Virus record (IMG/VR): IMGVR_UViG_3300020438_000220
Span: 1-27,289 of that record
Length of the DNA stretch: 27,289 bases
Direction: 5' to 3' (one strand)
DNA from: a virus
The first letter of the stretch is position 1. Each line of letters opens with the position of its first letter. Positions 17,006 to 26,669 of this stretch are shown one piece after another. Made by a program: the position numbers and the translations under genes. Below the pieces are notes generated by a model. It made no database searches. It was not told the origin of the DNA and was given only the letters and a program-made list of their open reading frames with translations.

Positions 17006-17524
17006 TTAATCTAAAAATTTGACCTTGTTTTTTTCAACTAGATCTTGTATTATCCTATGTTCTTCTTTTGGATTGTGCAGTGTTCCTCTTGGCTCATTGT
17101 CTCCGTAGTGATGATTGCTTCTGTCCCACCAATCGAATCCAGTTATTGTAACTTTGTCGTATCTTTCAAGCATCATATGTATCGCTATCATACCTGTGCT
17201 TGGTGATCGTAATTTAATTTTTGTTCTTACAAAATTTCCATCTGTCTGCTTGCAGTCGTTTCTTTTTGATATAAAGTCTTGATATATTTTGCATTTTTCT
17301 GAGTCCCATTGCCAACTATGTACTACGACTTCATCAAAAGCATCTATTTGGTTTACATGGGCGTGGTTTACAGTGAACCATATATTTGTTTTAATACCAG
17401 TGTATTCTTCATGACCTTTTATTTTGAAACCATTAAAGCGTAAAACAGTGTCAAAGCTATCTATTTTATTTCCATTAGGCTTGTCTAGTATAGATGTGCC
17501 GTTACCAACAATAATTATGCTCAT
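17006..17524 (-). CDS. GT29 sialyltransferase-like protein
   Basis: 172 residues. The N-terminal IIIVGNGTSILDKPNG, then FDTVLRFNGFKIKGHEEYTG, matches sialylmotif L (nucleotide-sugar binding; Arg29, Phe30, Asn31). SPSTGMIAIHMMLERY plus KVTITGFDWW corresponds to sialylmotif S. HHYGDNEPRGTLH and the following Glu155 correspond to motif VS. Such small GT29-like proteins occur in marine phages and bacteria. It would transfer a sialic-acid-like or other sugar from a CMP donor; donor and acceptor are unproved. It lies beside gmd, suggesting a glycan-modifying pair, and its ATG shares one base with the upstream stop (TAATG). Confidence 0.83.
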   Translation of the reverse strand: MSIIIVGNGTSILDKPNGNKIDSFDTVLRFNGFKIKGHEEYTGIKTNIWFTVNHAHVNQIDAFDEVVVHSWQWDSEKCKIYQDFISKRNDCKQTDGNFVRTKIKLRSPSTGMIAIHMMLERYDKVTITGFDWWDRSNHHYGDNEPRGTLHNPKEEHRIIQDLVEKNKVKFLD

Positions 17525-18339
17525 TAGTCCTGTACTGTATCCGGTGTTAGAAACGGTTGATCTACCATGTCATCTGTATATTTGTGATAGGCGGTAAGTC
17601 TTTCTTGTTCTTTCTTCATTGCCATTCTCATTTTTTCCATCTCAAGACCATAAGATCTTGCCATTTCTGGATTTGCAACTAAATAAGCCATCCACCCAGA
17701 GAAACTGGTTTTGCTATCTTCAAGTCTTTTCACTCTTTGCTCTCTCGTCGCTTTCATTTCTTTAAGCATGGAATTTTTCTTAGTTTGAAGTTCCCTATAG
17801 TCTTTGTTTAGGGATTCCTGTGAGGCTTTCAGAGAGGCTACCTGACGCTCCATGTTAAATATCTGGTCTAGATCCTGTTGATCTGGGTCATGTGCTCTCT
17901 CTTCGCTTATCAGAGCTTGTAAAGCGGCTATCTGTTCTATATTATCTTTATTATGTTTAAGAGATCTGTTCATAAGTAGTTCAAGTTTGATTAAGTCAAC
18001 TACTTGTAGTTCTTCTGTAGGTATAACATCGTCTCTAAACTGAGAAATTATCCTTGCCCAGTGATATTGAAACAATTTTAGCTCGTCTTCAGTGAACTGC
18101 TGCTTTAGTTCAGTCCAGTACGGTCTAAACTGTAAGTCAAATTGGGCTTGTTCCTCTGTTGAGACTTCGTTTTTTAACCAAACAGGGGTTTCAAGCTCCC
18201 CCTTGGACATTTTCTTCTTGATAAAGGTTAAAACACTGTCTGGATGTCGGTCTAGTTCGGTTGCTATTCGGTCTAAACCGAGATCTAAGTTTTCCCTGAT
18301 GACTTTTTCTTCTTTTTTAGAGATTCGTCCGGTTTTCAT
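17524..18339 (-). CDS. Coiled-coil protein, possible terminase small subunit
   Basis: 271 residues from ATG 18339. The N-terminal 45 residues look like a helix-turn-helix (SKKEEKVIRENLDLGLDRI, then ATELDRHPDSVLTFIKKKM). Residues about 140-250 are a charged coiled coil. HTH plus coiled coil, upstream of TerL in the same message, is the layout of a DNA-recognising small terminase, but no specific family is recognised. ATG 18348 gives three more residues, yet the AGGAG lies only 1 nt before it and 10 nt before ATG 18339, so the latter is preferred. It overlaps the sigma-like gene. Confidence 0.6.
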   Translation of the reverse strand: MKTGRISKKEEKVIRENLDLGLDRIATELDRHPDSVLTFIKKKMSKGELETPVWLKNEVSTEEQAQFDLQFRPYWTELKQQFTEDELKLFQYHWARIISQFRDDVIPTEELQVVDLIKLELLMNRSLKHNKDNIEQIAALQALISEERAHDPDQQDLDQIFNMERQVASLKASQESLNKDYRELQTKKNSMLKEMKATREQRVKRLEDSKTSFSGWMAYLVANPEMARSYGLEMEKMRMAMKKEQERLTAYHKYTDDMVDQPFLTPDTVQD

Positions 18340-18841
18340 GGTATCCATGCTCCTCTAATATCTCTGAGATCATATCTATAATTTCTTCTCTCCGCTGTTT
18401 TGTAACATATACGTCATTAATTATCTTAAGATAGTCCATTCTTACTTGTGCTGGTAGGTATTTATTAACTAAATCAACAATATCTTTGTTTTCTATATCA
18501 TTATAAGTGATAGAATATTTTTCATGTTCGTCAATAATAGTATCTTCGTAGTCTAACTGTGCTGGTTTCATGACTTTCACCCTATCTTCATCGGAGCTAG
18601 TCAGAAAATGATTGTCTCTAACGAAGTTTTTGAGTCTGTTGGATAAATTGACACTGAGGAAGTTTTCCAGAGGGCGACCTTCTTCATATCTATTTAGGGC
18701 TTCCATACATATAATAAAAGATTCTTGTTTAATATCACTAACAGTATATCCATAGAAGGTATATCTAGGGGCAATCCTATCACATACTAGTGTTATTGTG
18801 TCTATAACTTCTTGTTCTGTCATTCCTTTTGGTATATTCAT
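18317..18841 (-). CDS. Sigma factor-like protein, T4 gp55-type (late sigma)
   Basis: 174 residues. Residues 27-77 (YTFYGYTVSDIKQESFIICM, then EALNRYEEGRPLENFLSVNL, SNRLKNFVRDN) follow the core pattern of sigma70 region 2. They are closest to the region of T4 gp55 that reads FNFSGYTQSWKQEMI...NFDE...YITQ...FVQRIKKE. Region 2 binds the beta-prime coiled coil and recognises the -10 box. The C-terminal half is short and acidic/basic mixed with no clear region 4, so -35 recognition is not expected. That matches the -10-only GTGTATAAT motif upstream of late genes. GAGG lies 7-8 nt before the ATG. The function is inferred from the local pattern. Confidence 0.7.
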   Translation of the reverse strand: MNIPKGMTEQEVIDTITLVCDRIAPRYTFYGYTVSDIKQESFIICMEALNRYEEGRPLENFLSVNLSNRLKNFVRDNHFLTSSDEDRVKVMKPAQLDYEDTIIDEHEKYSITYNDIENKDIVDLVNKYLPAQVRMDYLKIINDVYVTKQRREEIIDMISEILEEHGYHENRTNL

Positions 18842-18842
18842 A

Positions 18843-19625
18843 TTAGTCCTCTGTTTTTATCTTTCTCCACTTAGCTCCGTCATAAAATTCAAGAGAATTT
18901 GAGGATGAGTTGAAGATTATCGTTCCTTGTTCTTTATTTCTAGGTTTTCTAGGGCTAGCTTTAAGTACAATATGTGATAATAATAGTTTAGATTTACTAT
19001 TTGTTAGTTCAACATAGTCTGAAGATATTAAAATAGGGTCATTATTATTATATAAAGACTTAACAACGTAGTCTGGAGATAGTATAAGAGATATCTCGTC
19101 AGAATTTAGAGACTGAACCTCTCCTTCTAGTCTTCCTAAGAGGGAATTTTCTTCTAGTTCTATAGGTGAGGGCGATAATTCGTCTGTACTACATAAAATA
19201 GAGTGTTTTCTGTAGAATAAATCTATATAATTGGTAGGTATATAAGAACCAATGACAGTATAGGTGTTATCTGGTAGTTCAAAGAAGCCATTTTTATCTA
19301 CTGGTGTTTCCTGACCTTGTTCGTCTGTGGATAGGGCGACTTCTCTGATTAAAATCAGATCCTTTCCTACCTTTTTAACGTGTGCAACGCCTTTTTCTTG
19401 TCTGTTAAGCTTTCTAGAATTTATATCTGTGCTATCGAAAGTTTCTAACGTATAGAAAAAGCTTGTATCTTCATCAAATATACGTCTTAAACTGTCTTCT
19501 TCTTGGATGTATCCCGTAAAGTGACTTCCTGTATGTTTGAATTGATCAACATCAAGAAGTTTTATGACATCGTTATTTGTGACACCGGGGCTTACGACAA
19601 AATTTTTGTTACGTATCTTTGCCAT
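18843..19625 (-). CDS. Structural-type protein with fibre-like C-terminal tag
   Basis: 260 residues, not recognised as a whole. It is mixed beta, with long Ser/Asn/Asp-rich segments and no membrane segment. The C-terminus GTIIFNSSSNSLEFYDGAKW resembles the GTIxYNTTTNxLxxYDGxxW motif seen at the ends of many phage fibre and structural proteins. This suggests a virion or tail-associated protein. Translation starts at ATG 19625 inside the end of the preceding small gene (17-bp overlap). The ribosome site is weak (AGAGGA about 13 nt upstream), so coupling is likely. Confidence 0.6.
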   Translation of the reverse strand: MAKIRNKNFVVSPGVTNNDVIKLLDVDQFKHTGSHFTGYIQEEDSLRRIFDEDTSFFYTLETFDSTDINSRKLNRQEKGVAHVKKVGKDLILIREVALSTDEQGQETPVDKNGFFELPDNTYTVIGSYIPTNYIDLFYRKHSILCSTDELSPSPIELEENSLLGRLEGEVQSLNSDEISLILSPDYVVKSLYNNNDPILISSDYVELTNSKSKLLLSHIVLKASPRKPRNKEQGTIIFNSSSNSLEFYDGAKWRKIKTED

Positions 19626-19797
19626 TATCTAGTAATTCCTCTATTGGTTTATCCTGATCATTCAATTCTTCCTGTACCTCTGCGTTTAGGGCAGCAGTTG
19701 CCTTGCAATCTAGATCTACTTCTATTGTTGTTCCGCTATCACCTTTGGGGTGATGTGATTTTTTTTCTGTTTTTATTTTCTTCCATTGTTCTGACAT
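19609..19797 (-). CDS. Hypothetical protein, 62 aa, first gene of the late block
   Basis: Not recognised. 62 residues, very hydrophilic, with a basic N-terminus MSEQWKKIKTEKKSHHPKG and an acidic C-terminal helix (VQEELNDQDKPIEELLDNG). AAAGGAGAAT precedes the ATG, an excellent ribosome site. A near copy of the late promoter motif (GTGTATTAT, 19826-19834) lies 29 nt upstream, so this is probably the first gene of the long late message. Its first residues QWKKIKTE echo KWRKIKTE at the very end of the next protein. Confidence 0.65.
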   Translation of the reverse strand: MSEQWKKIKTEKKSHHPKGDSGTTIEVDLDCKATAALNAEVQEELNDQDKPIEELLDNGKDT

Positions 19798-19825
19798 TGT
19801 ATTCTCCTTTCACGAGTACACTATA

Positions 19826-19834
19826 TAATACACA
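19826..19834 (-). promoter_or_regulatory. Putative late promoter, GTGTATTAT variant
   Basis: One mismatch from the GTGTATAAT 9-mer (minus strand), 29 nt upstream of the first late gene. It is the only candidate found for the head of the long packaging message. Confidence 0.45.
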
Positions 19835-19861
19835 GCAAGAGCATTTTCTCCAAAAAGTAAT

Positions 19862-19889
19862 TTGAATATTGTGTGAAAACAGCTATAAT
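19862..19889 (+). promoter_or_regulatory. Promoter TTGAAT-N16-TATAAT for a candidate ncRNA
   Basis: TTGAAT at 19862-19867 and a perfect TATAAT at 19884-19889, with a 16-bp spacer. The expected start is A19896, which is also the first base of a perfect AGATTA/TAATCT hairpin. No plus-strand gene follows for about 750 bp. Confidence 0.55.
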
Positions 19890-19895
19890 AAGGGA

Positions 19896-20317
19896 GATTA
19901 ATGGTTGAAAAGTAATCTAATTCAGTGAATATTTGTATAAATCCGTTAAACGGGGCTGTGGTATCGAGTCCAAGTCCAACTGAAAAGTAAGTTACCTGAG
20001 AGTGTCCAAGCGCTCCAAGGTTAGGCAAAATTGAAATCTAGGCAATGTCCCACCATGACAACCTAGTACCTGTGAAGAGCCTGAGAGGGCCAAGTTGTAT
20101 TTTTGAATTATTAGCATTGAAGACCTAACTGCTTACTGACCCAACCAAGTACCTGTTGTATTCTTCACAGGTATAAATGGTCTTGGTCCGTCTATAGGGT
20201 ACGATAGATTCTGTCTGGGGCGATCTACTAATTACATTTTCTTTTTACTAGTGTAGATTAGGTAAGACACCCCTTAGATTTTGTCCGCATTGCGTATGAA
20301 CCACCCTTGCTTTTTTT
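19896..20317 (+). ncRNA. Candidate large structured RNA with pseudoknot
   Basis: About 420 nt without a convincing plus-strand gene. Complementary segments: AGATTA 19896-19901 with TAATCT 19913-19918; TTCAGT 19921-19926 with ACTGAA 19979-19984, enclosing CCGT/ACGG at 19943-19953. Next is a two-part hairpin, CTAGG/CCTAG plus TGTC/GACA, at 20038-20066. A perfect 12-bp helix, TACCTGTGAAGA 20067-20078 with TCTTCACAGGTA 20162-20173, follows without a gap. TCTAT pairs ATAGA at 20191-20208, and GATCTAC 20222-20228 pairs GTAGATT 20253-20259. GGGCCAAG 20087-20094, inside the 12-bp helix loop, can pair with CTTGGTCC 20182-20189 outside it, a pseudoknot. Two helices use G-U pairs that would be A-C on the minus strand, favouring plus. 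A T7 run at 20311-20317 could end it. No known RNA class is recognised. Confidence 0.5.
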
Positions 20318-20385
20318 CTCTGTTCAGTTGAGTTTTTTCGTGAAGATAAAACCCCCACCCTATACAAACGGCATTGGGCTGCCCG

Positions 20386-20426
20386 AATCGCCCTAAGTCG
20401 TTGGTATCAAAGGGTTTACGTCGATT
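20386..20426 (+). repeat. Intergenic hairpin element, copy 1
   Basis: First of five copies. AATCG (20386-20390) pairs with CGATT (20422-20426), enclosing the core CTAAGTC...GGGTTTACG. GGGCTGCC precedes it at 20376-20383 and AAGAGAAAA follows, as in other copies. It lies between the candidate RNA and the first early promoter. Confidence 0.75.
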
Positions 20427-20479
20427 AAGAGAAAAGATAAGAAACTTTCGTAAAATTATAGAATTATAGTATAGTGGGG

Positions 20480-20508
20480 TTGACAAAACAGCCGATATAT
20501 ATTATAAT
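20480..20508 (+). promoter_or_regulatory. Early promoter TTGACA-N17-TATAAT
   Basis: Perfect sigma70 hexamers with GCCGATA in the spacer. It is the first of two tandem promoters before the early block; no gene lies between them. Confidence 0.9.
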
Positions 20509-20586
20509 GGGAAGCAGTTAAGAAGTTAATAACAATCGGCAACAATAACAAGTTAAAAAAACTTTCAGAATAATTAAAGATTGTAC

Positions 20587-20615
20587 TTGACAACAGCCGA
20601 TAAGTATAGTATAAT
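20587..20615 (+). promoter_or_regulatory. Early promoter TTGACA-N17-TATAAT
   Basis: Perfect hexamers, with GCCGATA in the spacer. It is followed by the A/C-rich leader AACAAGTTAACAACACAACG and the 62-aa gene. Confidence 0.9.
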
Positions 20616-20657
20616 AAGAACATAACAAGTTAACAACACAACGAAAGAGAGAATACA

Positions 20658-20846
20658 ATGAACGTTATTAAAATTGGAAACAAGAGCGAAGCTAAACTAA
20701 AGTTGTTCACGATTGATCGTCGTATCGAAAAGAAGATACAACAACACGTTAACGAACTAGGTCAACACAATACAGCTATCGTCGAAGCTGAATTAGAAAA
20801 GCTTTGGGCAATGAAAAGTATTTTGGTTAATTTTATAAATAGTTAA
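20658..20846 (+). CDS. Early hypothetical protein, 62 aa
   Basis: Not recognised. 62 residues, basic (Lys/Arg-rich), mostly helical: IGNKSEAKLKLFTIDRRIEK, then a helix with heptad-like spacing ending in VEAELEKLWAMKSILVNFIN. It is the first gene of the plus-strand block, behind two tandem consensus promoters, so among the first phage products made. GAGAGA lies 5-6 nt before the ATG. Small, charged, strongly transcribed early proteins of phages often bind host enzymes, but nothing in the sequence names a target. Confidence 0.7.
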   Translation: MNVIKIGNKSEAKLKLFTIDRRIEKKIQQHVNELGQHNTAIVEAELEKLWAMKSILVNFINS

Positions 20847-20851
20847 TCATT

Positions 20852-20884
20852 GTGACCTAACGTGTCACTACCATAGACGATAAT
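20852..20884 (+). promoter_or_regulatory. Palindrome-type promoter, copy 1 (operator 20852-20868)
   Basis: GTGACCTAACGTGTCAC, then exactly 10 bp, then GATAAT. There is no TTGACA at -35; the palindrome covers that position. It drives the 53-aa gene. Confidence 0.75.
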
Positions 20885-20923
20885 AATAATATGAGAAACA
20901 ACAACAACAACAAGGTAACAACT

Positions 20924-21085
20924 ATGAAACTTCAAGACAAACAAAAACAATCACGCGAAAACTACTGGATGGGCTGGTTGATCAATCAGATCGTCGCCTA
21001 TGACAACGATAGCCACAACGACGAGTTTCGTCATGCTATCCGCGATGCTGTCAAAGCATTGAGAAACTTGCGAAAGTTTTTCTAA
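20924..21085 (+). CDS. Early hypothetical protein, 53 aa
   Basis: Not recognised. MKLQDKQKQSRENYWMGWLI onward: charged N-terminus, a Trp/Tyr-rich centre (NYWMGWLINQIVAYDND) and a basic C-terminal helix (AIRDAVKALRNLRKFF). ATG 20924 is chosen because AAGG lies 8 nt upstream and the preceding AACAACAACAACAAGG looks like the A/C-rich leaders of sister genes. An in-frame ATG at 20891 would add 11 residues (MRNNNNNKVTT) and lies exactly 7 nt after the -10 box, so a leaderless start is the alternative. Transcription comes from the palindrome-type promoter. Confidence 0.65.
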   Translation: MKLQDKQKQSRENYWMGWLINQIVAYDNDSHNDEFRHAIRDAVKALRNLRKFF

Positions 21086-21098
21086 ATTATTGACAATC

Positions 21099-21131
21099 GT
21101 GACCTAACGTGTCACACACCTATGCTATAAT
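21099..21131 (+). promoter_or_regulatory. Palindrome-type promoter, copy 2 (operator 21099-21115)
   Basis: A perfect GTGACCTAACGTGTCAC, 10 bp, TATAAT at 21126-21131. A TTGACA at 21090-21095 is 30 bp from the -10 and cannot serve as -35. Confidence 0.8.
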
Positions 21132-21141
21132 ACTAATATAA

Positions 21142-21160
21142 GAAGTTAACAGTTAACTTC
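21142..21160 (+). repeat. 19-bp palindrome in the leader of the 78-aa gene
   Basis: GAAGTTAAC-A-GTTAACTTC is a perfect inverted repeat with 9-bp arms. Related leaders have AGAAGTTAAC followed directly by ACAACAC; here AGTTAACTTCAAA is inserted. It could be an mRNA 5' hairpin or an operator half-site pair. Confidence 0.7.
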
Positions 21161-21193
21161 AAAACACAACACGATCTTGAAAGGATCAACATT

Positions 21194-21430
21194 ATGACTA
21201 CTAAACAAAAACAATTTGACGTTACTTACGTAAGCCCATTCAACGGTCGCGAAGTGACCAGCCGTGAGGTTCCTGCCAATTCCATCTATCAGAACGATAG
21301 CGGTGAAATGGTGTACCGTTACAACAACTTCTACCCTGCTTGTGAGGTAATCACAGCTTGTGAGGTTCCACAATCACGCCTAGATGCACAGCTTGCCTAC
21401 TTCACCAAGTACGGCACAGCTAACGAGTAA
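21194..21430 (+). CDS. Early hypothetical protein, 78 aa
   Basis: Not recognised. 78 residues: a beta-rich N-terminal half (QFDVTYVSPFNGREVTSREV, then YQNDSGEMVYRYNNFYPACE) and a C-terminal helix (PQSRLDAQLAYFTKYGTANE). The first half has the look of a small SH3-like or OB-like fold, but that is only a guess from strand spacing. AAAGGA lies 10-11 nt before the ATG. It is behind the second palindrome-type promoter with a longer leader containing the 19-bp palindrome. Confidence 0.75.
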   Translation: MTTKQKQFDVTYVSPFNGREVTSREVPANSIYQNDSGEMVYRYNNFYPACEVITACEVPQSRLDAQLAYFTKYGTANE

Positions 21431-21525
21431 GGGTTTAACCCGCAAGCCTTGCCCTAGTCGCAAGCATAGGTGGCGACCTATTCCAAGATACGCACCATAC
21501 AACTACACTAACGAGGTTATTTATT

Positions 21526-21813
21526 ATGAGAAGTTTTAATCCTATTATCCGATGCGTTGACGGCTTTGAAATGAGCGTACAGGCTCATGATGGTAGCTAC
21601 TGCCAACGTAATACAGATGGTAAGCTAATCACTGTAGAGTGCGGCTTTCCCACCACTACACCTAAGACCGCCGATCTTCGCAACTATGCGGAGTACCGAG
21701 GCGAGATGAAGCCAGACTATACAGAAACGGTTTACCCCTATACGCCGATTGAGGTAGTACGGGCAGAGCTTGACGCTCACGGCGGTGTGACTATCGGATG
21801 CCTACCGTCTTAG
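21526..21813 (+). CDS. Conserved phage protein of unknown function (MxSFNPIIRCVDGFxMSVQA type), 95 aa
   Basis: 95 residues. The pattern FNPIIRCVDGFEMSVQAHDG, then YCxxR/N, VECGFPTTTP, YAEYRGE, TVYPYTPIEVV and a terminal HGGVTIGCLPS is one I recognise from many small phage proteins annotated hypothetical; no function is known. Cys at residues 10, 27, 39 and 92 could bind a metal or be incidental. GAGG lies about 10 nt before the ATG. The 95-bp gap upstream has no promoter, so it probably shares the previous message. It is followed by a GC-rich hairpin and hairpin element copy 2. Confidence 0.8.
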   Translation: MRSFNPIIRCVDGFEMSVQAHDGSYCQRNTDGKLITVECGFPTTTPKTADLRNYAEYRGEMKPDYTETVYPYTPIEVVRAELDAHGGVTIGCLPS

Positions 21814-21832
21814 CTAATCCGGACAGCTAGAA

Positions 21833-21852
21833 GCCCCCCATTAGCAGGGGGC
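21833..21852 (+). terminator. GC-rich hairpin, possible terminator without U-tract
   Basis: GCCCCC (21833-21838) pairs with GGGGGC (21847-21852) over an 8-nt loop, 20 bp after a gene end. No T run follows, so intrinsic termination is doubtful. It may act with the hairpin element starting at 21871. Confidence 0.4.
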
Positions 21853-21870
21853 CGAGGCTGCCGCGCACGC

Positions 21871-21899
21871 CGTAAGTCCTTTGGTAGCAAGGGTTTACG
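21871..21899 (+). repeat. Intergenic hairpin element, copy 2
   Basis: CGTAAGTCCTT (21871-21881) pairs with AAGGGTTTACG (21889-21899) through 11 pairs, two of them G-U, over a 7-nt loop. It follows GGCTGCC and precedes AGAGAAAA, as in other copies. Confidence 0.85.
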
Positions 21900-21939
21900 A
21901 CTATTTAGAGAAAAAAATGGTTTTTAATTAAGTTTACTA

Positions 21940-21968
21940 TTGATTTGTGCCGATATATATAGTATAAA
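21940..21968 (+). promoter_or_regulatory. Weak early promoter TTGATT-N17-TATAAA
   Basis: The spacer carries GCCGATATATATAG as in the strong family, but both hexamers deviate. The ribosome site of the next gene overlaps the -10 box. Confidence 0.6.
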
Positions 21969-21979
21969 GGAGAATGATT

Positions 21980-22048
21980 ATGACGTTTTTTTGTTTACTT
22001 ATCGGTGCTTGTTTGATTGGTCTTTTGGGGGCAGAAGTTTTATCATAA
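21980..22048 (+). CDS. Mini membrane protein, 22 aa
   Basis: MTFFCLLIGACLIGLLGAEV onward is one hydrophobic segment with a small-residue face (GxxxxG), compatible with a single membrane helix. AAGGAG lies 8 nt before the ATG, an ideal ribosome site. It is nearly unseparated from the weak promoter at 21940-21968: the site overlaps the -10 box, so only read-through transcripts would carry it. It is one of five tiny membrane proteins in the block. Function unknown. Confidence 0.55.
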   Translation: MTFFCLLIGACLIGLLGAEVLS

Positions 22049-22064
22049 ATTTCTCAAATACCCC

Positions 22065-22093
22065 TTGACAAGATTAACTTTTTATGGTATAAT
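22065..22093 (+). promoter_or_regulatory. Early promoter TTGACA-N17-TATAAT
   Basis: Perfect hexamers preceded by ACCCC. It is the only early promoter here without the GCCGATA spacer motif. The predicted start falls on the ATG of the next gene. Confidence 0.88.
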
Positions 22094-22099
22094 TACATC

Positions 22100-22312
22100 A
22101 TGTTAGCAATGACAGCAGTCGTTGCGGTTCCTTGTCGGATGTGTCAAGAGACAACAGATTTGAAAGTTAACTTTCAAGGTTTTGTCAATTGGAAATCCGG
22201 CGAGCTTATCCAAGAGGCTCTTCCTGAGCTATCTTGTGATGAGCGGGAGTTACTCATTTCAGGTACTTGCAGTACTTGTTTTGATGAACTTTTTCCTTCC
22301 GAGGATGAGTAA
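22100..22312 (+). CDS. Small zinc-ribbon-like phage protein, 70 aa
   Basis: 70 residues with two CxxC knuckles: CRMC (13-16) near the N-terminus and CSTC (near 58-61) near the C-terminus, around a conserved-looking core (LKVNFQGFVNWKSGELIQEA, then LSCDERELLISGTC). This pattern (VxWxxGxxIQxxLPxLSxxERELLxSGxC) occurs in many small phage proteins of unknown function; a single zinc site is likely. The ATG sits exactly 7 nt after the -10 box, so the transcript would be leaderless; ATG 22109 is the only alternative. No Shine-Dalgarno is present. Confidence 0.8.
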   Translation: MLAMTAVVAVPCRMCQETTDLKVNFQGFVNWKSGELIQEALPELSCDERELLISGTCSTCFDELFPSEDE

Positions 22313-22343
22313 CCGCTAGACCGTCGCCCTTCGGGGTGTGGAG

Positions 22344-22393
22344 TTTGATAAGCTCTGTCGAAATCACTCAATTATCAAAAACTTTGTTTTTTT
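22344..22393 (+). terminator. Possible terminator after the zinc-ribbon-like gene
   Basis: TTTGATAA (22344-22351) pairs perfectly with TTATCAAA (22372-22379) over a 20-nt loop, followed 7 nt later by T7 at 22387-22393. A small CGCCC-TTCG-GGGTG hairpin lies just before. The large loop and A/T-rich stem make it moderate. Confidence 0.45.
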
Positions 22394-22406
22394 CCTAAAG
22401 AACCCC

Positions 22407-22434
22407 TTGACATTCTGCCGATATTATGTATAAT
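22407..22434 (+). promoter_or_regulatory. Early promoter TTGACA-N16-TATAAT
   Basis: Perfect hexamers, AAAGAACCCC upstream, GCCGATA in the spacer, and ATACAACACACAACAC leader downstream. Confidence 0.9.
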
Positions 22435-22472
22435 GGGGTTATACAACACACAACACTTTTTAAGGTTTAACT

Positions 22473-22739
22473 ATGTTTTCAAAATTCGATGTTCAAATTT
22501 CTTCCGAAGAACTCAACACCTACGAGCCTACACAGGCTGATCGTGAGGAGTACCAAGCGTGGTTGGAGGAACAGGAGGCTGGCGAGCCTGAACCCTCTCC
22601 GGAGGACTGGAATGCCTTTGATGGGCATTTGGACTTCTACGCCGACGTAGAGGAGTCCTATGACGACGAGGAGGAGTATGACGAATCCGACCTATATGGT
22701 GCGGAATACGAAAATTTTGCAGTAAGGGAGTGGGACTGA
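22473..22739 (+). CDS. Acidic early protein, 88 aa
   Basis: Not recognised. 88 residues, extremely acidic: EEYQAWLEEQEAGEPEPSPE, then a stretch YADVEESYDDEEEYDESDLY with almost no positive charge. Such strongly acidic phage early proteins are often DNA mimics or inhibitors of nucleic-acid-binding host proteins; that is only a charge-based suggestion. TTAAGG lies 8 nt before the ATG. It is followed after one base by the 36-aa membrane protein gene, so the two are coupled. Confidence 0.75.
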   Translation: MFSKFDVQISSEELNTYEPTQADREEYQAWLEEQEAGEPEPSPEDWNAFDGHLDFYADVEESYDDEEEYDESDLYGAEYENFAVREWD

Positions 22740-22740
22740 T

Positions 22741-22851
22741 ATGAGTAGCGGTATGATTACATTTTGGGAATGGGCGACGGTTGCGGCTGTAACCTTCCCT
22801 ATCTTACTTGGTCTTTACGATGAGTGGTCTTATGGGCGATCCACCCAATAG
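22741..22851 (+). CDS. Small membrane protein, 36 aa
   Basis: MSSGMITFWEWATVAAVTFP, then ILLGLYDEWSYGRS. One central hydrophobic segment (residues 5-26) with a charged C-terminal tail, fitting a single-pass inner-membrane protein. It starts one base after the acidic protein's stop (TGATATG) with GGGAGTGGGA upstream, so it is probably translated by coupling. Function unknown. Confidence 0.65.
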   Translation: MSSGMITFWEWATVAAVTFPILLGLYDEWSYGRSTQ

Positions 22852-22871
22852 GGGGGTCGCGGGGCTGCCAA

Positions 22872-22912
22872 AATTGACGTAAGTCCTTTAGTAGCAAGGG
22901 TTTACGTAAATT
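22872..22912 (+). repeat. Intergenic hairpin element, copy 3
   Basis: ACGTAAGTCCTT (22877-22888) pairs with AAGGGTTTACGT (22896-22907), with outer AATT/AATT at 22872-22875 and 22909-22912. GGGGCTGCC precedes and GAGAGAAAA follows. It lies 20 bp past a gene end. Confidence 0.85.
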
Positions 22913-22952
22913 GAGAGAAAACTTTGGTAAAATATAAAAAAATACGTTGAGA

Positions 22953-22985
22953 GTGACCTAACGTGTCACGGACATAGACGATAAT
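22953..22985 (+). promoter_or_regulatory. Palindrome-type promoter, copy 3 (operator 22953-22969)
   Basis: A perfect GTGACCTAACGTGTCAC, 10 bp, GATAAT. It drives the 34-aa membrane protein through a leader with AGGAGA. Confidence 0.8.
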
Positions 22986-23019
22986 ATATATATAGAAGTT
23001 AATCAAGTTAGGAGAGTTT

Positions 23020-23124
23020 ATGTTTAATGTATCAGATGAGTTTATGATGTTCGTGGTCGTTCCGGCCTTAATGCTACCAGTCGGCTGGGTTGTCTCAAAA
23101 ATATTAAAAACTTTCGATAATTAG
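23020..23124 (+). CDS. Small membrane protein, 34 aa
   Basis: MFNVSDEFMMFVVVPALMLP, then VGWVVSKILKTFDN. One hydrophobic helix (residues 8-27) followed by a short basic amphipathic end, the usual orientation being N-out. AGGAGA lies 5-6 nt before the ATG. It has its own palindrome-type promoter, so it is produced under separate control from its neighbours. Function unknown; holin-like or host-membrane-modifying roles are possible but unsupported. Confidence 0.65.
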   Translation: MFNVSDEFMMFVVVPALMLPVGWVVSKILKTFDN

Positions 23125-23136
23125 TTAAGATACCCC

Positions 23137-23165
23137 TTGACAAATGCCGATAATTATGGTATAAT
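23137..23165 (+). promoter_or_regulatory. Early promoter TTGACA-N17-TATAAT
   Basis: Perfect hexamers, ATACCCC upstream, GCCGATAATTATGG in the spacer, and AGAAGTTAACACAACACAAGG leader: the best single representative of the family. Confidence 0.92.
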
Positions 23166-23203
23166 GGTATTATAAGAAGTTAACACAACACAAGGTTATA
23201 AAG

Positions 23204-23404
23204 ATGTACAGAATCAGAAGAACAAAAGAAACCGCAACCGGCAAACGCTTTTTGGTTGAAAGCTCACGCGGCAAAACCATCATTTGCAGTAGTGTAAGCG
23301 ATGACCGCCGATGCATCAGCAATCCAGAGTGCGAAGGGCAACAATCCTACGTCGTAAAGAAGTGGGAAAAACTTTCCGGAAAACAGAATTTTGTTTGGGA
23401 GTAG
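23204..23404 (+). CDS. Early basic hypothetical protein, 66 aa
   Basis: Not recognised. 66 residues, basic, predicted beta: MYRIRRTKETATGKRFLVES, then SSRGKTIICSSVSDDRRC, with Cys-containing ISNPECEGQ and an end KKWEKLSGKQNFVWE. Small strand-rich basic phage proteins frequently bind nucleic acid, but no motif proves this. AAGG lies about 9 nt before the ATG. Its TAG stop shares its G with the first base of the next palindrome operator (23404). Confidence 0.72.
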   Translation: MYRIRRTKETATGKRFLVESSRGKTIICSSVSDDRRCISNPECEGQQSYVVKKWEKLSGKQNFVWE

Positions 23405-23436
23405 TGACCTAACGTGTCACCACCCTATGCTATAAT
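23404..23436 (+). promoter_or_regulatory. Palindrome-type promoter, copy 4 (operator 23404-23420)
   Basis: A perfect GTGACCTAACGTGTCAC, 10 bp, TATAAT. It overlaps the stop codon of the preceding gene by one base and drives the 85-aa gene. Confidence 0.8.
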
Positions 23437-23474
23437 ATAGATATAAGAAATTAACACAACACAAAGGAAAAATT

Positions 23475-23732
23475 ATGAGAATTTCAGATTTAGAGTTTAC
23501 TACCGAGATGCGACAGAATTCATGGCGTGGCCATAGTGTCGAGACCAAAACGGATTCGCTCCGTATGGTTGCCAATGAGCGACACGCTCAACAGTACATC
23601 GACCAGTTTGGTGATGTCGAGATTGTATTGGATGAAAAATACAATACTTGGAAGGTTCCCGTTTTCGCTGAACAGCGTAAAGAATACTGTGACCTAAAAC
23701 AGGCACACTGTGAACGTTGGGGTTCTGAATAG
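23475..23732 (+). CDS. Early hypothetical protein, 85 aa
   Basis: Not recognised. 85 residues, mixed charge: MRISDLEFTTEMRQNSWRGH, a helical stretch with LRMVANERHAQQYIDQFGDV, a strand VEIVLDEKYNTWKVPVF, and a helix EQRKEYCDLKQAHCERWGSE. AAAGG sits 7 nt upstream of the ATG, in an AGAAATTAACACAACACAAAGG leader. It is the only gene on its transcript before three 29-bp repeats. Confidence 0.72.
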   Translation: MRISDLEFTTEMRQNSWRGHSVETKTDSLRMVANERHAQQYIDQFGDVEIVLDEKYNTWKVPVFAEQRKEYCDLKQAHCERWGSE

Positions 23733-23740
23733 AATCGCCC

Positions 23741-23829
23741 GCTGAAGCTTAACAGCATAACAATAGCACGAGAAGCTGAACTGCGTTAACAACAGCACCT
23801 GAAGCCTAACAGGTAAACAATGGCGGGAC
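23741..23829 (+). repeat. Three degenerate 29-bp tandem repeats
   Basis: Units at 23741-23769, 23770-23798 and 23799-about 23829 share GAAGC-TAACAG-TAACAA-GC features in register. Each has a short internal inverted repeat (for example CCTG/CAGG in the third). They fill the gap between the 85-aa gene and the next promoter. Confidence 0.6.
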
Positions 23830-23834
23830 ACCCC

Positions 23835-23863
23835 TTGACAGACGTTGCCGGTTATGGTAAAAT
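23835..23863 (+). promoter_or_regulatory. Early promoter TTGACA-N17-TAAAAT
   Basis: ACACCCCTTGACA upstream half matches the family; the spacer has the GCCGGTTATGG variant. Leader: TACAAAACACAACACAAAGA. Confidence 0.85.
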
Positions 23864-23900
23864 TAGAGTATACAAAACACAACACAAAGAAAGATTGATT

Positions 23901-24308
23901 ATGAAAACCGTTGAAGAAATGTTAAAAGAATTAGAAGTTGCCGTTCAGGAAATGATCGTCGTTCCGAATAGCTGGTTGCCTGAAGGGTTCCACAATGAAC
24001 GTGATGGCGGTCGCTCGCTTGCTGAACTCAACGCAATGTGCGAAGATATTGCAGACGGTGAAACTGAACACCAAAAGATCAAGTCGATCAAAGCCCGCAA
24101 CATTGAGAAACTGCGAAAGCAAGTTGAAGAAAAATCTATCTTCAACACTCACAAAGGTGGCACAGACTTCGTTGACCTGTCCGGCGAATTAGATTACAGT
24201 GATAACGAAGCCGATGAAATTCAGCTTCACAAAAATATGGCCGCGTTGGTTGGCGGTATGGTAAACGGTGGATTGATTGACGCTGACGACTTGGAGGAAG
24301 AAGTATGA
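23901..24308 (+). CDS. Early hypothetical protein, 135 aa
   Basis: Not recognised. 135 residues from ATG 23901 (MKTVEEMLKELEVAVQEM), the largest complete protein of the early block. Two helical, charged halves: residues 1-75 with MCEDIADGETEHQKIKSIKA, then RNIEKLRKQVEEKS, and an acidic C-terminus with LDYSDNEADEIQLHKNMAAL and DADDLEEEV. An upstream ATG at 23820 would place the start before the promoter and is rejected. AAAGAAAG lies 8-9 nt before the chosen start. It overlaps the next gene by 4 bp. Confidence 0.72.
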   Translation: MKTVEEMLKELEVAVQEMIVVPNSWLPEGFHNERDGGRSLAELNAMCEDIADGETEHQKIKSIKARNIEKLRKQVEEKSIFNTHKGGTDFVDLSGELDYSDNEADEIQLHKNMAALVGGMVNGGLIDADDLEEEV

Positions 24309-24589
24309 ACAACGGAAACATGCCTTACGGTTTAGGTTATATGATTGTAACCCTTTGCAGGATCTTAAAACCTCAAGAAGAATGGGAAGGTAATTCAGCC
24401 GGTGCGATTAGCTCCATGAAAGTTGCAGTTCCTCACGAAGTGATGGAAGAAACCGCTGCAAGTGGCGATCTTGAGTTGCTTGACTTGTGGGTGGAAGATG
24501 AGTTTGGTTTCCCGTGGTTGCTCGCACACGGTGAGAACATGCAATTTATGAGCGAACAAAGTTACAAGGAGTGGTGCAATGAAGTATGA
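24305..24589 (+). CDS. Early hypothetical protein, 94 aa
   Basis: Not recognised. 94 residues, acidic and helical-strand mixed: LGYMIVTLCRILKPQEEW, VPHEVMEETAASGDLELLDL, WVEDEFGFPWLLAHGENMQF, ending SYKEWCNEV. The first stretch is too polar for a true membrane helix. It starts at ATG 24305 in an ATGA overlap with the 135-aa gene, preceded by GGAGGAAG. The next gene begins 11 bp before its stop. Confidence 0.72.
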   Translation: MNNGNMPYGLGYMIVTLCRILKPQEEWEGNSAGAISSMKVAVPHEVMEETAASGDLELLDLWVEDEFGFPWLLAHGENMQFMSEQSYKEWCNEV

Positions 24590-24668
24590 AGAAAGTCAAC
24601 AGGGTGCATTAATGTTTTGTGTTCTATCGTTTATTGTTGGTTGCGTAGTTGTGGGGTTTTTGTTTTGA
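24579..24668 (+). CDS. Mini membrane protein, 29 aa
   Basis: MKYEESQQGALMFCVLSFIV, then GCVVVGFLF. Charged N-terminal tail, then a hydrophobic stretch of about 19 residues reaching the C-terminus, so a tail-anchored single-pass protein is likely. AAGGAG lies 6 nt before the ATG. It overlaps the 94-aa gene's end by 11 bp. Function unknown. Confidence 0.68.
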   Translation: MKYEESQQGALMFCVLSFIVGCVVVGFLF

Positions 24669-24670
24669 GA

Positions 24671-24832
24671 ATGAGAAGAGTACACGCCAACGAGCTGGCA
24701 CGCTATTACCAACGATTAGAAAATATTGAAAAGAGGAAACAGGAAAATGAAAGAAACGCTAAAATCAGTTTTATGGTTCGGGTTGTCCGCCGGTTGGGTT
24801 TGTTTCGCAATTATAATAATGGCCGCGTATAA
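24671..24832 (+). CDS. Hypothetical basic protein, 53 aa
   Basis: Not recognised. MRRVHANELARYYQRLENIE onward, strongly basic, helical (EKRKQENERNAKI), then SFMVRVVRRLGLFRNYNNGRV. It starts two bases after the previous stop without a clear ribosome site, so coupling would be needed. Its 3' half overlaps, in another frame, a 29-codon ORF encoding a better-looking membrane peptide with its own site. One of the two may be spurious; the N-terminal part before the overlap looks more protein-like. Confidence 0.5.
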   Translation: MRRVHANELARYYQRLENIEKRKQENERNAKISFMVRVVRRLGLFRNYNNGRV

Positions 24833-24836
24833 ATAG
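24747..24836 (+). CDS. Mini membrane protein, 29 aa (overlaps the previous ORF)
   Basis: MKETLKSVLWFGLSAGWVCF, then AIIIMAAYK: one uninterrupted membrane helix with Lys at both ends. CAGGAAA lies just before the ATG, a fair ribosome site. It overlaps the 53-aa ORF in the +1 frame. The hydrophobic pattern resembles the other four mini membrane genes in this block, which argues that it is real. Confidence 0.55.
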   Translation: MKETLKSVLWFGLSAGWVCFAIIIMAAYK

Positions 24837-24871
24837 GGGTTGACAAAATCTGGCGGGGCTGCCCCGCGAGC

Positions 24872-24900
24872 CGTAAGTCCTTTAGTAGCAACGACTTACG
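24872..24900 (+). repeat. Intergenic hairpin element, copy 4
   Basis: CGTAAGTC (24872-24879) pairs perfectly with GACTTACG (24893-24900): both wobble pairs of other copies are Watson-Crick here. A GCGGGG/CCCCGC hairpin with a 3-nt loop (24853-24867) containing GGGGCTGCC precedes it. It lies 36 bp past a gene end. Confidence 0.85.
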
Positions 24901-24939
24901 ACAATTTAGAAAAAAAACAAAAAAACATTAAAGAACCCC

Positions 24940-24967
24940 TTGACATCTGGTCGATATATATTATAAT
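24940..24967 (+). promoter_or_regulatory. Early promoter TTGACA-N16-TATAAT
   Basis: Perfect hexamers, AAAGAACCCC upstream, GTCGATA spacer variant. The transcript enters about 250 bp with no convincing gene. Confidence 0.9.
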
Positions 24968-24973
24968 GGAAGA

Positions 24974-25215
24974 GTAAGAGAGACAACATCACAACCCCGT
25001 TAAGGCCTTTGTAGCCATTACGTAAGGACAGAATCGGTAAGACGGTTCAGGGGTGCATCGAGGCGTAAGTCAAATCCGGTTCCTTTGTGAACTTAAAAAT
25101 GGACGCAGCAGACTACGGTGCAGATGGAATGGCCTGCCATCGTGGTGTCTGTCTTATCTTAACAAGGCGAATGGGGTGTTATGGGTACAGCCAGCGAGTT
25201 AGTAAAAAATCCAAA
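24974..25215 (+). ncRNA. Candidate structured RNA behind an early promoter
   Basis: The 301 bp between this promoter and the next gene start hold no ORF with a ribosome site. Clear stems on the plus strand: GAATCG 25031-25036 with CGGTTC 25043-25048 (one U-G pair, 6-nt loop); GTTC/GAAC at 25079-25092; GCAGAC 25108-25113 with GTCTGT 25147-25152 (one G-U), enclosing GATGG/CCATC at 25123-25141. ACCCC at the 5' end can pair with GGGGT near 25050. The wobble pairs favour plus-strand folding. Length about 240 nt. A 41-codon ORF at 25099-25224 lacks a ribosome site and looks random. No known RNA class is recognised; 3' end uncertain. Confidence 0.4.
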
Positions 25216-25234
25216 ATAAATTAAAGTTACCCCC

Positions 25235-25262
25235 TTGACAATGACGATAATAATAGTATAAT
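25235..25262 (+). promoter_or_regulatory. Early promoter TTGACA-N16-TATAAT
   Basis: Perfect hexamers, ACCCCC upstream, GACGATA spacer variant. The predicted start coincides with the ATG of the 49-aa gene. Confidence 0.9.
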
Positions 25263-25268
25263 GATAGT

Positions 25269-25418
25269 ATGAGAAACAACAAGACAATAACCCTGAAGAT
25301 CAAAGTTGGAAAGGTCGCAGTCGGCCATCAGGCTAACAGTCATCAGGTTCATGATAGCCGCCCGAAGCGGCAACGAACACGCCAAGCACAGCGTAGTGCA
25401 TGGCAACGCAACGAGTAA
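25269..25418 (+). CDS. Early basic protein, 49 aa, probably leaderless
   Basis: Not recognised. MRNNKTITLKIKVGKVAVGH, then QANSHQVHDSRPKRQRTRQA, QRSAWQRNE: a short strand followed by a very basic Arg/Lys-rich C-terminus, suited to binding nucleic acid. The ATG lies exactly 7 nt after the -10 box and there is no Shine-Dalgarno, so a leaderless mRNA is implied. A hairpin GCCGC-CCGAA-GCGGC lies within the gene. If the ORF is not translated, this stretch could be another untranslated RNA or leader for the 50-aa gene. Confidence 0.6.
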   Translation: MRNNKTITLKIKVGKVAVGHQANSHQVHDSRPKRQRTRQAQRSAWQRNE

Positions 25419-25437
25419 CATTGAAAGGTAAAAAGTT

Positions 25438-25590
25438 ATGTCTATCAAATTCACCAAAGACAAAGAGACTAAAACCAAGGTTCGCTATGCAGCAACCGGC
25501 GAAGTATCAGGGTCGATCTACATCGACAAAGATTCAGAGCTTGCAAAAGAATCTGAAATTATTCTGGAAATTTCTCAAGTTACCGCTTGA
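25438..25590 (+). CDS. Early hypothetical protein, 50 aa
   Basis: Not recognised. MSIKFTKDKETKTKVRYAAT, then GEVSGSIYIDKDSELAKESE, IILEISQVTA: a small all-beta protein with alternating Lys/Glu, looking like three or four antiparallel strands. AAAGG lies 8-9 nt before the ATG. The TGA stop is inside the TTGACA of the next promoter (25587-25592), so the end of this gene and the -35 box cannot vary independently. Confidence 0.75.
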   Translation: MSIKFTKDKETKTKVRYAATGEVSGSIYIDKDSELAKESEIILEISQVTA

Positions 25591-25614
25591 CAATGCCGAT
25601 AATTATAGTATAAT
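25587..25614 (+). promoter_or_regulatory. Early promoter TTGACA-N16-TATAAT
   Basis: Perfect hexamers with GCCGATAATTATAG spacer. The -35 box contains the stop codon of the preceding gene. Leader: GTAACATCACAACAC. Confidence 0.9.
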
Positions 25615-25651
25615 GAAAGAGTAACATCACAACACTTTTAGGAGGAATCTA

Positions 25652-25888
25652 ATGGAGATTCATAAGAAGATTGTAGTCGGTCAGATTGACCACACTTACC
25701 TGTCGAGCTGGAAGTCAGACAACGAAGTAGAACTTCACAAAGGCAATGACATTGTCATGTTCACAATGACTGAGGAAGTCATGACACAGCTTCACAAGAA
25801 GCTAGGTGACAAGCTGACAAAGATTGCCGCCGAACGTCTTGAACAAGCTAGAGAACTCGCACAGGAGGAGTCATCAGAAGATGAGTAG
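25652..25888 (+). CDS. Early hypothetical protein, 78 aa
   Basis: Not recognised. 78 residues: MEIHKKIVVGQIDHTYLSSW, then beta strands (VELHKGNDIVMFTMTEEVM) and a C-terminal helix rich in Lys/Glu (LHKKLGDKLTKIAAERLEQA, then ELAQEESSEDE). A strong ribosome site, TTAGGAGGAATCTA, precedes the ATG. It is the first of three overlapping genes and shares its last 8 bp with the next one. Confidence 0.77.
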   Translation: MEIHKKIVVGQIDHTYLSSWKSDNEVELHKGNDIVMFTMTEEVMTQLHKKLGDKLTKIAAERLEQARELAQEESSEDE

Positions 25889-26054
25889 TAGTCAAAAACC
25901 TATTGTCGCTGTAGGTACAGTATTAGCGGCTGGCACGGTCAAAGCCATTAACAATGACCACGTTTTGTTAGACACTCAAGAGGGTGTCAAGAGTTTCAGT
26001 TTTCCACAAGTAGAAAGGTTCATCCATGAACAACGATCTTTATCTCAAGCGTAA
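25881..26054 (+). CDS. Early SH3-like hypothetical protein, 57 aa
   Basis: 57 residues from ATG 25881 (MSSSQKPIVAVGTVLAAGTV), with AGGAGGAG starting about 18 nt upstream, inside the previous gene. All-beta: VGTVLAAGTVKAINNDHVLL, DTQEGVKSFSFPQVERF, like a small SH3-type barrel. The GVKSFSFPQV block resembles LHKSFSLSKCV in the next gene, so the two may be divergent paralogues. An upstream ATG at 25824 is rejected because it would lie deep inside the 78-aa gene. Function unknown. Confidence 0.7.
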   Translation: MSSSQKPIVAVGTVLAAGTVKAINNDHVLLDTQEGVKSFSFPQVERFIHEQRSLSQA

Positions 26055-26229
26055 CGAACGCAAAGTTTCTTTCCTGTATCCTAAAAACGGGAATCGTAAC
26101 ATCCTTCGCACCGTCAACGGTGTCAAGGTAAAAAGTTTCACCGGCCCGAACGGGCGCGGAATTACCGTCCGAGAGGACACCGGCTTGCACAAGTCGTTTT
26201 CACTATCAAAGTGCGTGGCGTCACTATAA
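26026..26229 (+). CDS. Early SH3-like hypothetical protein, 67 aa
   Basis: 67 residues: MNNDLYLKRNERKVSFLYPK, then NILRTVNGVKVKSFTGPNGRG, ITVREDTGLHKSFSLSKCVA. All-beta and basic. The FLYPKNGNRNILR...GVKVKSFTGPNGRGITV core resembles small phage proteins with a WYL/SH3-like barrel end, but no family is certain. It overlaps its neighbour by 29 bp in another frame, with AAAGG 8-9 nt upstream. It is the last gene of the unit; a strong terminator follows at 26254-26288. Confidence 0.72.
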   Translation: MNNDLYLKRNERKVSFLYPKNGNRNILRTVNGVKVKSFTGPNGRGITVREDTGLHKSFSLSKCVASL

Positions 26230-26253
26230 TCACGCCGCCTTTCGTGTTGTGGG

Positions 26254-26288
26254 GAGAATGCCACCCTTCGGGGTGGCTTCTCTTTTTT
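26254..26288 (+). terminator. Strong Rho-independent terminator
   Basis: GAGAA-T-GCCACCC pairs with GGGTGGC-TTCTC around a TTCG tetraloop (26267-26270), then TTTTTT at 26283-26288. It ends the unit that starts at 25587. Confidence 0.92.
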
Positions 26289-26293
26289 CTCTA

Positions 26294-26335
26294 AAATCGC
26301 CTAAGTCCTTTAATCATAAGGGTTTACGACGATTT
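26294..26335 (+). repeat. Intergenic hairpin element, copy 5
   Basis: AAATCG (26294-26299) pairs with CGATTT (26330-26335), enclosing CCTAAGTCCTT and AAGGGTTTACG over a TAATCAT loop. Here the GGCTGCC motif lies after the hairpin (26337-26343). It begins 6 bp past the terminator. Confidence 0.85.
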
Positions 26336-26350
26336 TGGCTGCCCGCCGCC

Positions 26351-26383
26351 GTGACACGTTTGGTCACTCAATCGGCATAAAAT
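26351..26383 (+). promoter_or_regulatory. Palindrome-type promoter, copy 5, inverted operator (26351-26367)
   Basis: GTGACACGTTTGGTCAC is the reverse complement of the operator with one mismatch. It lies exactly 10 bp before TAAAAT (26378-26383), as in the other copies. A normal TTGACA promoter follows 38 bp later. Confidence 0.55.
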
Positions 26384-26420
26384 AAAAATAAAATATTACC
26401 ACAAAATACTAAAGTTCCCC

Positions 26421-26448
26421 TTGACAAATAGCCGATATAATATATAAT
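26421..26448 (+). promoter_or_regulatory. Early promoter TTGACA-N16-TATAAT
   Basis: Perfect hexamers, AAAGTTCCCC upstream, GCCGATA in the spacer. It transcribes the tRNA-like candidate RNA. Confidence 0.9.
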
Positions 26449-26454
26449 GGAAGT

Positions 26455-26607
26455 GTTCGGGAAGTGGTCTTGCAAGATGAGACACTGACGAAGAATGTTA
26501 ACTGAACGGCCTGATGGACGCATTAGGAGGGAAGTTACTGGGCAGCTCAAGCCTATTCTAGTTCGGTGCTTGCAAGTGTAGGGTTCGACTCCCTACCCCG
26601 TCCGCCA
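26455..26607 (+). ncRNA. Candidate RNA with a tRNA-like 3' end (T-arm and CCA)
   Basis: A consensus promoter transcribes about 150 nt that ends in a canonical T-arm: TAGGG-TTCGACT-CCCTA (26579-26595), then CCCCGTCC, G and CCA (26605-26607). This is the eight-base acceptor spacing of selenocysteine tRNA rather than the usual seven. Upstream stems: TAACT 26499-26503 with AGTTA 26533-26537, enclosing CCTGAT/ATTAGG (26510-26527, one G-U), and TGGGC/GCCTA (26539-26555, 7-nt loop, one G-U). The loop GGACG (26516-26520) can pair with CGTCC (26599-26603) of the acceptor. There is no canonical D-arm or anticodon arm. A 28-codon ORF (26495-26581) lacks a good ribosome site. It may be a tRNA mimic, a very divergent tRNA or a tRNA relic. 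Confidence 0.5.
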
Positions 26608-26641
26608 TACAAATAAACGGAAATAAATTAAAGATTACCTC

Positions 26642-26669
26642 TTGACATTCCGATAATATATAGTATAAT
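26642..26669 (+). promoter_or_regulatory. Early promoter TTGACA-N16-TATAAT
   Basis: Perfect hexamers with TCCGATA spacer variant. Leader GCAACACACAACACAAGG leads into the GP88-type gene. Confidence 0.9.

Follow-up and report, generated by a model that had tools for sequence, protein, structure and literature searches.

A paired-dyad element at the borders of early gene units in uncultured phages, possibly a protein-bound DNA boundary

Integron attC sites are palindromes located between the genes of an array and are served by the tyrosine recombinase IntI, and REP/BIME elements are dispersed, extragenic paired palindromes with a spacer, which are associated with a Y1 (RAYT) transposase. The promoter-early stem-loop (PeSL) cassettes of T4-type phages were reportedly described by Arbiol in 2010 and Comeau in 2014. 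In these cassettes, which are discussed in a text citing this work (PMC4503421), a repeated palindrome is combined with a strong early sigma-70-type promoter at the borders of small genes that change fast; modules are shuffled at such borders, and the stem-loop is described as a terminator. The stoperators of L5-type mycobacteriophages are 13-bp asymmetric monomer sites, found across the genome and oriented with transcription, for which the repressor is known and which are proposed to halt transcription (PMC9283540).

The element considered here was found in an IMG/VR virus record of 27,289 bp (the window, that is, the whole stretch of DNA analysed) and in its relatives. As in the PeSL cassettes, a repeated palindrome and strong early promoters mark the borders of small, fast-changing genes, and modules may be shuffled there, the gaps with a promoter alone breaking equally often; unlike in the cassettes, two dyads flank a spacer of fixed pitch, the arms do not covary, U-tracts are lacking and the phage clade is probably a different one. 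The likeness to stoperators is that many DNA sites, predicted here to bind protein, occupy short intergenic spaces of one phage, but the sites are symmetric dyads, mostly paired and confined to one array, and no repressor was found, which led to the rejection of a stoperator (PMC9283540). PeSL appears to be the closest concept and stoperators the closest protein-binding analogue. The element, which lacks some defining features of each, may be regarded as a variant with the working of a boundary cassette that belongs to neither group. The copies are interpreted below as parts of a composite DNA boundary element between early units, predicted to be bound by protein, for which the chances are judged to be about even.

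Five copies in the window and the complete element in relatives

The minus-strand block of the window contains the terminase and other virion-type genes, and the plus-strand block contains small genes with many strong TTGACA/TATAAT promoters. Five 25-nt cores, all on the plus strand, start at 20394, 21873, 22880, 24874 and 26302, and the family pattern matches all five exactly, whereas dinucleotide shuffling of the window leaves 0.14 matches on average even with three mismatches allowed. The five copies of the sequence-only reading are therefore real, far above chance and located where it placed them, and the arm and loop sequences that it gave are correct. An Rfam search of the window gave no match above the gathering score and no family that overlaps the copies, and none of the five overlaps a tRNA called by ARAGORN. 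Further downstream, positions 26570-26608 resemble the 3' half of a tRNA (GGTTCGACTCCCTACCCCGTCCGCCA), where ARAGORN calls no tRNA.

In the relatives, the complete element consists of two dyads, H1 and H2, around a block of ~28 bp that is mostly G+C-rich, a few spacers being not strikingly so. The dyads are built from the half-site CG-TAAGTC(C/G)TT, with 9-bp arms and 7 bp between them. The H1-H2 pitch is near-constant within a genome, most often at 53 bp (8/8, 7/7, 8/8, 13/13 and 13/13 elements in individual genomes), in others at 52 bp (6/6), 50-51, 48 or 41-42 bp, and the sequence of the spacer varies despite this constancy. A conserved hairpin was not detected in the G+C-rich block, which folds no better than its composition predicts, and the arms of H1 show no excess of cross-pairing with those of H2. 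By comparison with these elements, the window copies are worn half-elements, of which copies 1-4 keep the block and H2, and copy 5 keeps H1 and the block. The features of the window are as follows.

20376..20384, unstranded: remnant of the G+C-rich block of copy 1, GGGCTGCCC, from comparison with the full elements of relatives
20386..20426 (core 20394-20418), plus strand: copy 1 dyad, H2-type, between the divergent gene blocks and the first early promoter
20480..20508, plus strand: early promoter after copy 1, TTGACA-17-TATAAT
21847..21868, unstranded: G+C-rich block of copy 2
21865..21905 (core 21873-21897), plus strand: copy 2 dyad, H2-type
22851..22869, unstranded: G+C-rich block of copy 3
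22872..22912 (core 22880-22904), plus strand: copy 3 dyad, H2-type
24852..24867, unstranded: G+C-rich block of copy 4, GGCGGGGCTGCCCCGC
24866..24906 (core 24874-24898), plus strand: copy 4 dyad, H2-type, arms Watson-Crick save for a C.C mismatch at arm position 7
24940..24967, plus strand: early promoter that follows copy 4 at 41 bp from the core of the dyad
26260..26287, plus strand: canonical intrinsic terminator, GCCACCCTTCGGGGTGGC with a T-rich tail, just 5' of copy 5
26294..26334 (core 26302-26326), plus strand: copy 5 dyad, H1-type, 5' of the G+C-rich block
26337..26351, unstranded: G+C-rich block of copy 5, GGCTGCCCGCCGCCG
26351..26367, unstranded: a different palindrome, GTGACACGTTTGGTCAC, at the expected position of H2 (26302 + 53)
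26421..26448, plus strand: early promoter 3' of copy 5; its distance from the end of the expected H2 slot would be 41 bp, the same as at copy 4

The motif GGCTGCC, which had been placed beside every copy, does lie 5' of copies 1-4, but it is found 3' of copy 5. Similarly, the 3' flank thought to be shared is AGAGAAAA after copies 1-3, whereas copy 4 has AGAAAAAA and the A/T-rich flank of copy 5 is on the opposite side. The flipped flank order of copy 5 follows from its being H1 plus block, where copies 1-4 are block plus H2.

Several other sequences accompany these features. An operator-like palindrome, GTGACCTAACGTGTCAC, is present at 20852, 21099, 22953 and 23405 and inverted at 26351-26367; it belongs to a second promoter class without TTGACA and also occurs in contigs G006 and G007. 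GCCGATA or GACGATA between the hexamers is common to many early promoters of the window (20480-26669) and of its relatives. Between the divergent blocks, ~750 bp without a clear gene (19626-20385) may hold a control region or an RNA, and this gap is conserved in G006 (75.6% identity over 17524-20435).

Distribution among phages

A scan of viral contigs with a degenerate pattern returned at least 120 stretches, from which 18 contigs were taken by length or copy number, so that the sample is not random. A terminase related to that of the window is encoded by 15 of the 18; identity is at least 53% in eleven of these and 24-31% in the other four, which could reflect generic terminase similarity. 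In every array-bearing contig, including those of 88-233 kb, the clustered copies are confined to a single array, for example in G008 (173.8 kb) at 26.2-35.7 kb, in G013 (148.8 kb) at 101.6-112.4 kb and in G015 (232.7 kb) at 20-39.5 kb; reversed sequences, used as a control, gave 0-5 matches per contig.

In a phage collection, the best listed matches of the window's TerL are Microcystis phage MaeS, Bacillus Slash/Stahl-type and SPbeta-type phages, at 22-25% identity, with no T4-type record among the matches listed. No named isolate with an array was found, MaeS itself being without the element, and two Bacteroides phages gave lone weak matches only; these similar dyads, in BT498P1 and BT638P6 (L380:21698 and L381:531-620), lie in long intergenic gaps. 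A cellular carrier was rejected, as the multi-copy matches in the genome collection are mostly short contigs in unrelated bins and are probably misbinned phage. Separately, an uncultured Verrucomicrobiae chromosome, OX638380 (L208 and other loci), contains six near-identical palindromes of the type TAAGTCGTTGATTACCAACGACTTA. The element is real and widespread in a large family of uncultured phages, and in the literature searched no description of it and no paper on these oligomers was found.

Paired palindromes that are dispersed and alike within a genome could also represent a non-coding mobile repeat of the REP/MITE kind, which has multiplied in phage genomes and come to occupy intergenic positions. 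The confinement to one array even in genomes above 100 kb, the placement ahead of promoters and the absence of a Y1 (RAYT) transposase (PF01797) from 19 records, with positive control genomes, make this very improbable. REP/BIME, which the element resembles in its extragenic paired palindromes with a spacer, was rejected on the same differences: copies restricted to one region, ahead of promoters, and no PF01797.

Promoters, terminators and gene shuffling at unit borders

Genomic context was assessed for 141 elements on promoter-oriented contigs. Intergenic positions account for 125 of them, against ~35% expected, the median interval between elements is ~1.2 kb, most often two to four genes, and a promoter lies within 250 bp downstream of 82 elements and upstream of 6. 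These figures support the earlier view of the elements as unit boundaries ahead of promoters. The further statement that all of them follow the last gene of a unit fails at copy 1, which lies between the divergent blocks and 5' of the first rightward gene of the window and thus cannot end an upstream rightward unit. Two observations count against a boundary role, namely that only about one in three of the window's promoters has an element upstream, most promoters inside units being without one, and that several distant arrays (G020, G014 and G021) have no sigma-70-type promoters by the pattern used.

The strong bias towards downstream promoters, together with the presence of an element before the first unit as well, is also what would be seen if a regulator at H2 (or at H1 and H2) controlled the early promoter ~40 bp downstream, with no insulation. 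Such an operator is unlikely, given that the distance from element to -35 is variable (10th-90th percentile, 30-129 bp), that the element is absent from most within-unit promoters and that some arrays have no recognisable promoters. An intrinsic terminator, that is, a G+C-rich stem followed by a T-tract, was ruled out, since a U-tract is found 3' of 0/141 elements; here the sequence-only reading, which held a classic terminator to be unlikely for want of a U-tract, was right. Canonical terminators do occur within 200 bp upstream of 10 of the 141, including copy 5.

Contig G007 (166.8 kb), the terminase of which is 86% identical, has no array of these elements. At its borders TTGACA is followed after about ten bases by CCGGGCGGCCCCGGCCGGG or a similar sequence, in several cases with T-rich sequence thereafter, and one such border element follows the same gene as copy 5 of the window, so there is more than one way to build a boundary. 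These repeated, G+C-rich border elements of G007 (L297) are found at reverse-complement 52163-63299, and L149 (G005) has both kinds.

Gene adjacency is kept in a relative across 10 of 40 gaps with the element versus 35 of 57 gaps without it (p = 4.6e-4, an indicative value, as the phage pairs are not independent). Promoter gaps without the element keep adjacency in 2/9 cases; they break as often, which argues that shuffling goes with unit borders generally and not with the element specifically.

Cassette-like arrays whose unit order differs between relatives, and inverted arms with a 7-bp centre that resemble tyrosine recombinase core sites, would be consistent with a site-specific recombination site that bounds gene cassettes in an integron-like manner and is used by a host or unrecognised recombinase. 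This is quite improbable, because promoter-only gaps break equally often, and because neither tyrosine recombinase (PF00589) nor serine recombinase (PF00239), nor the Y1 transposase, was found in the 19 records, several of them fragments, while the control genomes were positive. An integron attC site, which likewise divides an array of small genes by palindromes, was rejected on the absence of PF00589 from these records, and differs further in that many units here have their own promoters and the spacer length is fixed; a resolvase res site was rejected on the absence of PF00239.

Arms as RNA pairs or DNA half-sites, and the proposed boundary module

Pairing was analysed in 355 copies from 24 contigs, the arms of which were selected separately, with pairing not a criterion; since the search demanded TAA and TTA at the ends, conservation at those positions was built in. 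The copies of one genome are related, and a few distant arrays are of uncertain strand, which does not affect this analysis. At arm positions 4-8, 972 Watson-Crick pairs were observed versus 1021 +/- 11 after shuffling of right arms within genome and class, and the matches between arms are at or below independence at nearly every arm position. The hairpin of the window had been called covarying and taken as evidence of selection on plus-strand RNA structure; in this larger alignment, a check that the sequence-only reading had itself named as a possible refutation, the arms vary without compensation and pair less than within-genome shuffles, and neither claim holds. The change on which it had drawn, the switch of copy 4 to GACTTACG, is real, but the same copy also gains the C.C mismatch.

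Among copies of clear orientation, A.C mismatches are commoner than G.U wobbles on the transcribed strand (~59 versus 34, from base frequencies). The commonest variant half, TAAAC, faces a consensus TAAGT half in 50/52 left-hand and 17/23 right-hand cases and is never opposite another TAAAC (AC/AC, 0/355), and half-site scores correlate negatively, significantly so only at positions 4-6. This pattern fits a putative site for a protein dimer to which one weak half is acceptable, and avoidance of perfect palindromes would also fit.

Copies 2-5 can fold, copy 1 does not fold as the hairpin (MFE z +1.0), and in copies 4 and 5 the minus-strand fold is the more stable. In the relatives, the plus-strand fold of H1 is better than that of shuffled sequences (mean z -2.05), and H2 folds better on the minus strand. 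That RNA folding would still be possible for many copies, and most of all for H1, counts against a DNA site and favours an RNA element, in which transcript hairpins serve non-canonical termination, RNase processing or 3'-end protection, as does the scarcity of canonical terminators upstream (10/141), since something else may end transcripts. Against it are the lack of covariation, pairing below shuffles, the preponderance of A.C over G.U, the strand preference of H2, the failure of copy 1 to form the hairpin, the lack of U-tracts and the element 5' of the first unit, which has no rightward gene upstream. An RNA role is therefore considered unlikely, and a structured RNA with a covarying hairpin was rejected, as the 355 copies show no compensatory base-pair changes. 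The dyads have the appearance of DNA sites at which a protein docks, not of RNA hairpins, and protein binding, listed earlier as one option, is now the favoured reading, at the level of DNA instead of RNA.

For the composite DNA boundary element, the sequences show its anatomy and location, the fixed pitch, arms that vary independently, the absence of U-tracts and the shuffling that goes with unit borders, and from these we infer protein binding and an insulating or roadblock action. Each dyad would most likely be bound by a symmetric DNA-binding protein, and the fixed pitch of H1 and H2 would allow the two bound units to act together. The elements would separate small early-gene modules of ~1.2 kb, mostly upstream of a strong sigma-70-type promoter, as a protein-bound roadblock or insulator between early units, and the repeated module ends may also permit reshuffling of modules, as in PeSL cassettes. 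Among the widely conserved genes listed for the element-bearing phages, none is missing from G007, which lacks the element, so no conserved phage gene tracks it; the predicted binder is possibly encoded by the host, or by a phage gene that evolves fast. A more far-reaching proposal, which is put forward tentatively and is rather doubtful, is that of a dedicated phage insulator with two protein-bound dyads at fixed pitch, which makes early modules independent and exchangeable and which, in a deep clade of large uncultured phages, is conserved except in some close relatives that have a different element in its place.

To conclude, a few copies of a sequence can suggest RNA covariation that vanishes in a larger sample, and the rigid two-dyad anatomy offers a direct handle for finding the predicted binding protein. 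If the proposed boundary is correct, large phages would carry insulator-like DNA boundaries that partition their early genes into modules, and transcription control would be linked to the rapid swapping of genes in early regions.
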